Of a stretch of DNA of 61,562 nucleotides, positions 55,503-58,522 are shown piece after piece (the first letter of the stretch is position 1; each line of letters starts with the position of its first letter). Source of the stretch: Erysipelotrichaceae bacterium (GTDB lineage Bacteria; Bacillota_I; Bacilli_A; Erysipelotrichales; Coprobacillaceae); contig JAGBPZ010000078.1 of assembly GCA_017633115.1 (NCBI GenBank), positions 1-61,562 of the forward strand. The letters run 5' to 3'. The notes beneath the pieces were generated by a model. It was given only the letters and a program-made list of their open reading frames with translations. It ran no database searches and had not been told where the DNA came from. The translations under genes and the position numbers were made by a program.

Positions 55503-55533
55503 ATTTAAAAAAGTAGGACATTGTCCTACTTTA
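55503..55533 (-). terminator. Intrinsic terminator of the copA-csoR operon
   Basis: On the minus strand AAAGTAGGAC / GTCCTACTTT (3-nt loop) continues into T residues. It overlaps the csoR stop codon. Confidence 0.87.
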
Positions 55534-55780
55534 AAAGTGCTTCAATCATCTTGACCATTTCTTCGATTTTTTCTTCTTCTCCTGCCGAATCATGGACACA
55601 ATGACGTAAATGTGCAGTTAATATTTCTTGATTGGTCTTTTTCAATAAAGCCTGACTGGCTAAAATCTGATGCGAAATGTCAATACAATAGCGATCATCT
55701 TCCACCATTTTGATAATACCATCTATTTGACCTCGAACAGTCTTAAGATAGCGCATGACTTTTTGACTATCAGCTTTCAT
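55526..55780 (-). CDS. csoR: Copper-sensing repressor CsoR
   Basis: This 84-residue all-helical DNA-binding repressor has the Cu(I) ligands of the CsoR family: Cys32 in DDRYCIDISHQ, His57 and Cys61 in TAHLRHCVHD. The basic residues of the N-terminal helix (KVMRYLKTVRGQIDGI) are typical. Cu(I) binding releases it from DNA. Its ATG overlaps the copA stop codon (TAATG), so it is co-translated with the copper exporter. A perfect palindrome in front of copA is the likely operator, giving a self-regulated loop. Confidence 0.95.
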   Translation of the reverse strand: MKADSQKVMRYLKTVRGQIDGIIKMVEDDRYCIDISHQILASQALLKKTNQEILTAHLRHCVHDSAGEEEKIEEMVKMIEALLK

Positions 55781-56001
55781 TAATTGATTCCTGTCACTTT
55801 ATAGCCAGCATCAGCAACGGCTTTAATAATAACATCATCATTGACCTTTTTCTTCATGACGATATCAGCTTTCTTCTCTTCAAGGCTCACTTCAGCAGTG
55901 ACACCATCAATACTTTCAAGAGCTTCTTTGACATGTGCTGCACAATGTACACACATCATACCTTCAATCATCACTGTTTTACTTGTTTTCTTACCAAACA
56001 T
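55780..56001 (-). CDS. Nested in-frame CopZ-like copper chaperone (internal start in copA)
   Basis: Inside copA, in the same frame, the minus strand reads GAAGGAGGAAATGATATG: a perfect AAGGAGG 7 nt before ATG at 56001. Translation from here gives a 73-residue CopZ-type protein beginning MFGKKTSKTVMIEGMMC with one CVHC copper site and sharing the stop codon of copA. Free CopZ proteins of this size are standard partners of CopA. I infer that the ribosome may make both the long pump and a free chaperone; it could also be a remnant of a former separate copZ gene. No proof of use is available from sequence. Confidence 0.6.
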   Translation of the reverse strand: MFGKKTSKTVMIEGMMCVHCAAHVKEALESIDGVTAEVSLEEKKADIVMKKKVNDDVIIKAVADAGYKVTGIN

Positions 56002-58494
56002 ATCATTTCCTCCTTCAATAGTGATTACTTCATAGCCTGCTGCTTCAATAGCGGCTTTTAATTGATCATTATAATGTTCTGGTGCTTTCACACTAGCGTG
56101 TCCTGATTCAAGGTCAACCTCTGCTGTGACTTGCTCTAAATCATTTAATGCTTTAGCGACACGTGCCTGACAGTGTTCACACATCATGCCACCAACAGTG
56201 ACATCATAATCATAGAGGGCCACTTTTTCTTTCACATCAAGAACCGGTGTTGTCTCTTTAGTTTTGACTTCATATTCTACTGGTTTGAAGAATCTTAATC
56301 TAAGTGCATTCGTAACAACAAAGACAGATGAAAAACTCATTGCGAGAGATCCTAGCATTGGTGAAAGCTTCAATCCAAATGATTTATAGAATAAACCTGC
56401 AGCTACAGGGATACAAATCGTATTGTAAAATAACGCCCAGAATAGATTCTGTTTGATATTGCGCATCGTGGCATGTGATAAATCAATCGCATTAACAATA
56501 TCAAGCAGATTATTTTTCATTAAAACTAAGTCACTTGAATCAATCGCAATATCTAGACCATGAGTAAATGATATACCTAAATCAGCGCGCATAAGTGCTG
56601 GGGCATCATTGATGCCATCACCTGTCATCGCAACTTTAAAACCTTGAGACTGAAGATCAGCAATCACTGATTCCTTATCCTGTGGTAAAACTTCTGCCTT
56701 AACTTCCATTCCCAACTCTTGAGCAACGGCTTCAGCTGTACGCTTGTTGTCACCTGTTAACATCAACGTTTGAATACCACGTTGATGAAGCTGCTTAATG
56801 ACTTCTGGCGCTTCAGCCTTGATGTCATCACGTAATGCCATAACACCAGCATAATGACCATCGACTGCACCATACAGAACTGTTTTGCCCTGACTTGCAT
56901 AATCATCATGTGCTGTCACTTCAATATGATAACGTTCCATTAAACGTTTATTCCCAACAATGACAGTCTTGCCATTGATCACGCCTTTAAGACCTCCACC
57001 AGTGATTTCTTCATAATCAGAAATTTGAAGTTGACTATATGGCTGAGCCCTGGCAATCGCCTCTGCCAATGGATGAGAAGACTGACTTTCAAGATTTAAA
57101 ATATAATCAGCATCTTCGTCATTGATTGCCCAGTCAGTGACGACAGGTACACCTAAAGTCAAAGTACCAGTTTTGTCAAAGACAATCATATCAATACGAG
57201 AGGCCCCTTCTAAAGCCTCAGCATCGCGGATCAATAATCCCATCTTTCCTGCCACTCCAGTACCTACCATGATAGCTGTTGGTGTCGCCAAGCCTAATGC
57301 ACAAGGACAAGAAATGACAAGGACGGCAATTGCCATTGTCAAAGCAAAATGGAAGCTTTCACCTAAAATCATCCAGGCAATAAGAGTCACTAAAGCAATA
57401 CCAATGACTACTGGTACGAAGTATCCTGAAATGACATCTGCAAGTCTGGCAATTGGTGCTTTTGAATTACCTGCGTCTTCAACAAGATGAATAATCTGCG
57501 ATAGCGTTGACTGCTCGCTGGTCTTCATTGTTTTAACAACGATACGACCACTCTGGTTGATGGTTGCTCCAATTACTAAATCACCTACCTGTTTGTCTAC
57601 AGGAATTGATTCACCAGTAATCATGGATTCATCAACGGTGGTATGACCTTCAACGATTTCTCCATCAACCGCAATACTTTCACCTGATTTAACGACAACT
57701 AAATCACCAATCTGAATAGATGCAATTGGGACTGTCATTTCCTGATCATTTTTAAGCACAACAGCTTCCTCAGGTGATAATGCCATTAAGCCATTGATGG
57801 CATCAGATGTCTTTTTCTTGCTTCTAGCCTCAAAATACTTGCCAAGTGAAATCAATGTCAGAATCATTGCAGCTGATTCAAAATATAAGTTCATATGATA
57901 AGCATGTGCTTGCATTAAATCGAGTCGTCCCATGTAATAAGCCATCATAAACATACCATATAGACTATAGACAATAGATGCTCCTGAACCAATCGCAATC
58001 AGTGAATCCATATTAGGTGCTAAATGAGCTAATGATTTAAACCCGCCAATGAAATAATGACGATTGATGATGACAACGACACTGCAAAGAAGTAATTCTG
58101 TCAAGGCAAAGATCATCATGTTTTCATGGCCAAGGAAAATACTTGGAATAAATGGCCAGCCCATCATTGAACCCATTGATAAATAGAACAAAGGAATCAT
58201 AAAGACAAAAGATATAATGAGATCACGCAAGCGCTTCTCTAAATCTTCATCCTTGCGACTTGATGATGATTGTACCTTTTCTACACCTTGAAGAGCAGCA
58301 TCATAGCCGCCCTTTTGGACAGCTTTAATGATTTGATCTGTGGATGTGACGGTTTCATCGTAATCGACTTCCATCGTTTCCGAAAGAAGATTGACCTGAC
58401 ATTCATTAACACCTTCAACACCACGAACACTTTTATCGACATGAGCCTGACATGCCGCACATGTCATTCCCATAACATCAAACTTTTGTTTCAT
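55780..58494 (-). CDS. copA: Copper-exporting P1B-type ATPase CopA with C-terminal HMA pair
   Basis: This 904-residue pump exports Cu(I). The order is an N-terminal HMA domain (GMTCAACQAHVD), the membrane part with CPC (SCPCALG, about residue 398), phosphorylated Asp in DKTGTLTLG (about 440), the SSHPLAEAI site and GDGINDAPAL, then two further HMA domains: HMA2 from about 761 (VGGMMCEHCQARV) and HMA3 from about 832 (IEGMMCVHCAAHV). Most CopA proteins end soon after the last membrane helix; extra C-terminal HMA domains are unusual. HMA3 has its own ribosome-binding site and start codon inside the gene. Confidence 0.95.
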   Translation of the reverse strand: MKQKFDVMGMTCAACQAHVDKSVRGVEGVNECQVNLLSETMEVDYDETVTSTDQIIKAVQKGGYDAALQGVEKVQSSSSRKDEDLEKRLRDLIISFVFMIPLFYLSMGSMMGWPFIPSIFLGHENMMIFALTELLLCSVVVIINRHYFIGGFKSLAHLAPNMDSLIAIGSGASIVYSLYGMFMMAYYMGRLDLMQAHAYHMNLYFESAAMILTLISLGKYFEARSKKKTSDAINGLMALSPEEAVVLKNDQEMTVPIASIQIGDLVVVKSGESIAVDGEIVEGHTTVDESMITGESIPVDKQVGDLVIGATINQSGRIVVKTMKTSEQSTLSQIIHLVEDAGNSKAPIARLADVISGYFVPVVIGIALVTLIAWMILGESFHFALTMAIAVLVISCPCALGLATPTAIMVGTGVAGKMGLLIRDAEALEGASRIDMIVFDKTGTLTLGVPVVTDWAINDEDADYILNLESQSSHPLAEAIARAQPYSQLQISDYEEITGGGLKGVINGKTVIVGNKRLMERYHIEVTAHDDYASQGKTVLYGAVDGHYAGVMALRDDIKAEAPEVIKQLHQRGIQTLMLTGDNKRTAEAVAQELGMEVKAEVLPQDKESVIADLQSQGFKVAMTGDGINDAPALMRADLGISFTHGLDIAIDSSDLVLMKNNLLDIVNAIDLSHATMRNIKQNLFWALFYNTICIPVAAGLFYKSFGLKLSPMLGSLAMSFSSVFVVTNALRLRFFKPVEYEVKTKETTPVLDVKEKVALYDYDVTVGGMMCEHCQARVAKALNDLEQVTAEVDLESGHASVKAPEHYNDQLKAAIEAAGYEVITIEGGNDMFGKKTSKTVMIEGMMCVHCAAHVKEALESIDGVTAEVSLEEKKADIVMKKKVNDDVIIKAVADAGYKVTGIN

Positions 58495-58505
58495 GGAAAC
58501 CTCCT

Positions 58506-58522
58506 ATACCCCCTGGGGGTAT
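58506..58522 (-). promoter_or_regulatory. CsoR-type operator in front of copA
   Basis: A perfect 17-bp palindrome ATACCCCC-T-GGGGGTAT overlaps a GATAAT -10 box (58521-58526) and ends a few bases before the copA ribosome-binding site AGGAGG. G/C tracts flanked by TA and AT are typical of CsoR sites. Repressor binding here would block the copA-csoR promoter. A convincing -35 was not found. Confidence 0.8.

Follow-up and report, generated by a model that had tools for sequence, protein, structure and literature searches.

A copper pump and its chaperone are textbook partners, and the programmed frameshift by which Escherichia coli obtains both from one gene, reportedly described by Meydan et al. 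2017 and Drees et al. 2017, had looked like a special trick. In E. coli copA, the N-terminal HMA domain is released as the free chaperone CopA(Z) by -1 programmed frameshifting (PMC5009743, PMC9548414, PMC7558416). The copA gene of a gut-dwelling Erysipelotrichaceae bacterium, contained in the 61,562-nt stretch of DNA analysed here (the window), raises the question whether pump and chaperone may also be obtained from one gene by internal initiation of translation. An earlier note on this DNA drew the comparison with the E. coli frameshift as a different solution to the same need, and we judge it apt: in both cases a single copA gives (here by prediction) a pump and a free single-HMA chaperone of ~70 aa, but E. 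coli uses the N-terminal HMA domain, a slippery site and a pseudoknot, whereas the gene described here would use its C-terminal HMA domain and an internal in-frame start with its own Shine-Dalgarno (SD) sequence.

The copA frame runs uninterrupted from 58494 to 55780 on the minus strand, with 904 codons and zero internal stops, and its product scores 612 bits against TIGR01511 (copper-translocating P-type ATPase), above the cut-off of 397. CopA1-type Cu(I)-exporting P1B ATPases are recognized by a P-type core (DKTGT, GDGINDAP) together with a copper-type CPC motif, and the window's CopA, which contains ISCPCALG and FDKTGT, belongs to this type. The gene and its operon comprise the following features:

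55780..58494, minus strand: copA, encoding a P1B-type Cu(I)-exporting ATPase of 904 aa with the domain order HMA1-ATPase-HMA2-HMA3 (ORF and NCBIfam TIGR01511)
58300..58482, minus strand: HMA1, the N-terminal metal-binding domain, with GMTCAAC (PF00403, 59 bits)
56029..56202, minus strand: HMA2, the first C-terminal HMA domain, with GMMCEHC (PF00403, 42.5 bits)
55798..55977, minus strand: HMA3, with GMMCVHC, the C-terminal domain of CopA and the entire domain of the putative nested CopZ (PF00403, 46 bits)
55526..55780, minus strand: gene for a csoR-family copper-sensing repressor, its ATG overlapping the copA/copZ stop codon as TAATG (ORF)
58506..58522, minus strand: perfect 17-nt palindrome ATACCCCCAGGGGGTAT, CsoR-operator-like, 5' of the copA ribosome-binding site (sequence)
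58500..58505, minus strand: copA's own SD, AGGAGG (sequence)
55510..55532, minus strand: terminator-like hairpin 3' of csoR, at the end of the copA/copZ-csoR operon (sequence)

The csoR-family product scores 56 bits against the RicR profile NF052430, below its cut-off. The palindrome ATACCCCCAGGGGGTAT looks like a CsoR operator and is a candidate for that role, which is consistent with the csoR-family gene at the end of the operon.

Three further features lie within the 3' part of copA and define the putative nested gene:

56009..56015, minus strand: internal SD AAGGAGG, encoding part of an EGGN linker (sequence; conserved in relatives)
55999..56001, minus strand: internal in-frame ATG, codon 832 (Met832), the putative start of the nested CopZ (sequence; start codon conserved in relatives)
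55780..56001, minus strand: nested copZ reading frame of 73 aa plus stop (CopZ profiles and alignment to 1k0v)

The earlier note had described a perfect ribosome-binding site, AAGGAGG, placed 7 nt before an ATG at the last HMA domain of CopA, in the interval 55780-56040, and all coordinates checked hold, with the feature on the minus strand: the gap between AAGGAGG (56015 to 56009) and ATG (56001 to 55999) is 7 nt, the 904-codon ORF confirms that the copA frame continues through the junction without a stop, stops are present in both other frames (TGA at 56003-56005 and TAA at 56025-56027), and the frame from the internal ATG reads MFGKK...GIN, a predicted product of 73 residues. Among the 65 in-frame ATG, GTG and TTG codons of this copA, Met832 has the strongest SD/start pair (-14.0 kcal/mol), followed by a GTG at codon 505 (-13.2 kcal/mol); copA's own start scores -15.3 kcal/mol, which is comparable with the internal site. 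Taken alone, the internal SD of the window's copA is only suggestive and could be due to chance, as an SD this strong arose somewhere in the linkers with P = 0.31 under a synonymous null of protein-preserving codon shuffles; the significance of the site therefore depends on its conservation in relatives. A separate internal transcript was also considered and rejected, with zero minus-strand promoter-like matches between the internal start and 57185 (>1 kb upstream) in scans that are weak.

Relatives were sampled from 60 whole genomes, 43 genomes of the window's family and 196 of its order, as well as from 80 named loci of other genomes, mainly Clostridia; the additional samples were drawn with a query lacking HMA domains and thus carry no bias toward fused genes. 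The same continuous copA frame was present in 41 of the 43 genomes of the family and, by hand count, in about 54 of the 147 genomes that made up the Clostridia sample, figures that hold for the sampled counts only, as the first query set was derived from fused genes. The earlier note had left a choice between two products made from one frame and a recent fusion or indel, and had proposed aligning copA of relatives in search of a stop between HMA2 and HMA3; no stop between the C-terminal HMA domains was found in the copA of close relatives. The first of its options is strongly supported, since the SD and start codon are kept across many genera, while the second fails. The nearby stops in both other frames would fit a fusion confined to this genome that is either recent or an artefact of an indel or a faulty assembly, but with the continuous frame found in so many other genomes this explanation is refuted and retains virtually no probability.

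With regard to the internal start itself, 208 distinct fused tails, mostly from Bacillota, were de-duplicated to 176 clusters at 80% identity, and starts were picked 6-9 residues 5' of the last HMA motif, blind to the SD. A start codon was present at this place in 160 of the 176 clusters, sometimes as GTG or TTG instead of ATG, and 153 of these 160 internal starts (96%) were preceded by a strong SD. The other 16 clusters have no start in the -6 to -9 range; in several of them, namely the window's own and those of L007, L009, L069, L074, L088 and L168, it lies a few residues further upstream. In 172 single-HMA genes, codon -8 from the C-terminal GMxCxxC motif was a start codon in 77%, and 98% of these start codons had a strong SD, compared with 3.4% among 4608 further in-frame ATGs of copA; on average, internal SDs also equal or outscore copA's own (strong in 96% versus 75%). 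Beyond what the earlier note had noticed, the arrangement is widespread, and the internal start shifts in position among the C-terminal HMA domains. The copA genes of the window's clade have two or three C-terminal HMA domains; in the window, L007 and L008, the internal start precedes the last of them. In the close relatives L009-L012 it precedes the first of two, so that their free chaperone is predicted to have two HMA domains; the SD is weaker in L010 and L011. In one locus (L263, in genome G059, with an open frame of 1124 aa), the linker that joins the ATPase to two C-terminal HMA domains is very long, and the last of these domains is preceded by the SD and start. A contig labelled as a Deltaproteobacteria MAG (L093) also carries a fused copA with AAGGAGG and an internal ATG, through either transfer or mis-binning.

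Conservation of this kind could arise at the protein level by coincidence, if linkers rich in K, E and G happened to be encoded as AAG GAG GAN and Met were favoured at the HMA boundary; KEE is indeed the commonest linker, and some individual P values are weak. This account is rejected by a null model in which codons were shuffled with the protein kept: across the 160 de-duplicated genes, mean SD energy was -11.25 observed versus -7.09 under the null (z = -18, a value that, like the P values, overstates independence because the sequences are related), and strong SDs numbered 153 versus 72 expected, with a null maximum of 91. Furthermore, the SD is not tied to one frame but falls in each of the three relative to copA (144/36/3 by spacing class), and for this reason the residues that it encodes vary (KEE; xGG, that is EGG, QGG or KGG; RR) while AAGGAGG itself is constant. 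Together with the narrow spacing between SD and start and with Bacteroidota linkers that have no SD, these observations make a coincidence extremely unlikely.

Folding of the mRNA points in the same direction as the codon choice. Mean folding energy over 40 nt reaches its weakest value, -0.9 kcal/mol, right at the internal start, compared with about -6 to -8 kcal/mol at 80-100 nt. An initiation region would be expected to show this, and in 77% of genes the fold at this position is weaker than that of synonymous shuffles. SD-like sequences stimulate frameshifting in some genes, and some of the linkers are A-rich, which would suit an SD-like element that stimulates frameshifting or makes ribosomes pause, for instance to allow time for membrane insertion. 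Neither pausing nor frameshifting needs a start codon 5-11 nt downstream or a minimum of mRNA structure at that start, the GTG and TTG replacements are still start codons, and no slippery heptamer was seen around the window's internal site on reading the sequence; we thus regard such a signal as having only a minute probability. A frameshift of the E. coli CopA(Z) type would be recognized by a slippery sequence, a stimulatory structure and an early stop in the -1 frame.

Bacteroidota provide a contrast, as SDs are generally absent in this phylum (PMC3155529) and its ribosomes fail to recognize SD sequences (PMC9976891). Fused copA genes of Bacteroidota carry a start codon at the same place in 23 of 30 cases, with a strong SD in 0 of these 23, whereas a strong SD was present in 26 of 27 cases in a parallel Clostridia sample; an SD-independent internal start is possible in the Bacteroidota genes. 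In the fused Bacteroidota copA loci L323-L351, the start codon stands 8 residues ahead of the HMA motif, and no SD is present. We took a nested gene to be indicated by an SD and start whose conservation within an open frame exceeds what the encoded protein requires, and this is what was found with the codon null, the three frames, the position control and the Bacteroidota contrast.

The nested frame has the properties of a CopZ domain, defined as a single complete HMA of ~70 aa with MxCxxC: it spans 73 aa, scores 46 bits against PF00403 and aligns to residues 3-69 of Bacillus subtilis CopZ (1k0v) with an E value of 1e-7. Its scores against the CopZ profiles (56 of 85 bits for NF047957, 46 of 91 for NF033795 and 41 of 62 for TIGR00003) lie under the NCBI whole-protein cut-offs, and the product is therefore classified as CopZ-like. 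The motif MxCxHC occurs in 168 of 198 C-terminal HMA domains of fused genes and in 21 of 24 separate CopZs encoded just 3' of unfused copA; N-terminal HMA domains carry MxCxAC/S/I instead. In a tree that is rough, given the short domains, 40 of 40 sampled C-terminal HMA domains were nearest a separate CopZ. Across the wider class, copA is in many cases unfused and is then followed directly, or overlapped at the stop codon, by a separate HMA gene, in some cases as ATGA (L256, L259), and the copZ SD often lies within the last copA codons or just after them (e.g., L256, L259, L284). Shared motif, tree and unfused relatives together identify the C-terminal HMA as a captured CopZ that has retained its start, and we conclude that copA and copZ were fused in frame with the copZ start kept, such that one gene would encode both a pump and a free chaperone.

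The unfused relatives show that SD and ATG once belonged to copZ, and both might therefore persist as unused relics of the time before fusion, with only the fused pump being made. Against this, the elements are kept in 153 of 160 genes whose tails are below 80% identity and whose linkers have changed in length and sequence, codon choice is under selection with the protein fixed (z = -18), and Bacteroidota retain the start codon with no SD; we consider a relic very unlikely. Internal in-frame initiation giving two proteins from one gene, after in-frame fusion of copZ, is in our assessment highly probable, although initiation in vivo, the stoichiometry of the two products and the function of the free one are deduced from sequence. 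In an ancestral copA-copZ-csoR operon, the stop or the difference in frame that kept copA and copZ apart would have been lost, after which the copZ ribosome-binding site remained under selection. On the mRNA made from the copA promoter, ribosomes starting at the first ATG would produce the Cu(I)-exporting ATPase with CopZ tethered to it as a C-terminal domain, while 30S subunits would also bind the internal AAGGAGG in an unstructured linker and start at Met832, yielding a free 73-aa CopZ predicted to bring Cu(I) to the pump.

The importance of the free form can be judged in part from the other CopZ genes of each genome, bearing in mind that a separate copZ could be hidden in drafts; the window's genome, a 96% complete draft, has zero other CopZ genes. 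Two candidates for a separate CopZ were rejected, a membrane-type HMA protein of 129 aa adjoining a FeoB-like gene and an HMA protein of 71 aa, with DCANC, adjoining a CadA-type ATPase. Some fused copA genes lack a usable internal start (L213, L307, L092, L030, L181 and L184). Three of these (L030, L181 and L184), in genus g26, have lost it, and their genomes hold a separate CopZ-like gene of ~57 aa (L311, L312 and L313, in G042, G165 and G171) that adjoins a purine nucleoside phosphorylase gene. In G131, a sister genome that has kept the internal start, this separate gene is absent. The pattern, a single evolutionary event, is as expected for a replacement of the nested copZ. In G266, which carries L307, neither a usable internal start nor a separate CopZ was found, and free CopZ is thus not indispensable everywhere.

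The system can also be placed beside others. Compared with the separate copZ of copA-copZ(-csoR) operons in Bacillus and Enterococcus, it shares the MxCxHC domain and the gene order, and the separate copZ of the sampled unfused relatives has a ribosome-binding site of the same kind as the nested one; the difference is that the intergenic stop is gone, which makes the CopZ domain the C-terminal tail of CopA. Cas11, made by internal in-frame translation within cas8 and cas10d (PMC11899642 and references there), is likewise a small C-terminal protein whose in-frame start lies inside a larger gene. It differs in being part of a CRISPR complex, an unrelated system. Archaeoglobus fulgidus CopA has both N- and C-terminal metal-binding domains and is, like the window's CopA, a Cu-ATPase with a C-terminal HMA domain; we know of no internal start in its gene. 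A. fulgidus makes CopZ as a protein of its own, to which an Fe-S domain is fused (PMC7558416). Searches of the open-licence literature brought up the E. coli frameshift but no account of internal initiation in copA.

In a broader sense, we see about an even chance that a dual-coding copA for pump and chaperone is ancient and widely retained in Bacillota and extends to Bacteroidota with an SD-independent internal start, that the pair of ribosome-binding sites sets the ratio of tethered to free chaperone, and that lineages swap between separate, fused-with-start and relocated copZ. If the internal start in copA is indeed used, annotation misses the nested copZ because its second start is in frame, and genomes scored as lacking copZ may have one; testing SDs at the junctions of domains against a synonymous null could reveal further hidden in-frame genes. 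Use of the internal start would also add a clear convergent case of 'one gene, two proteins', with a well-conserved internal initiation site to study, and would mean that a large share of gut Bacillota makes the copper chaperone within the pump gene by a route different from that of E. coli.
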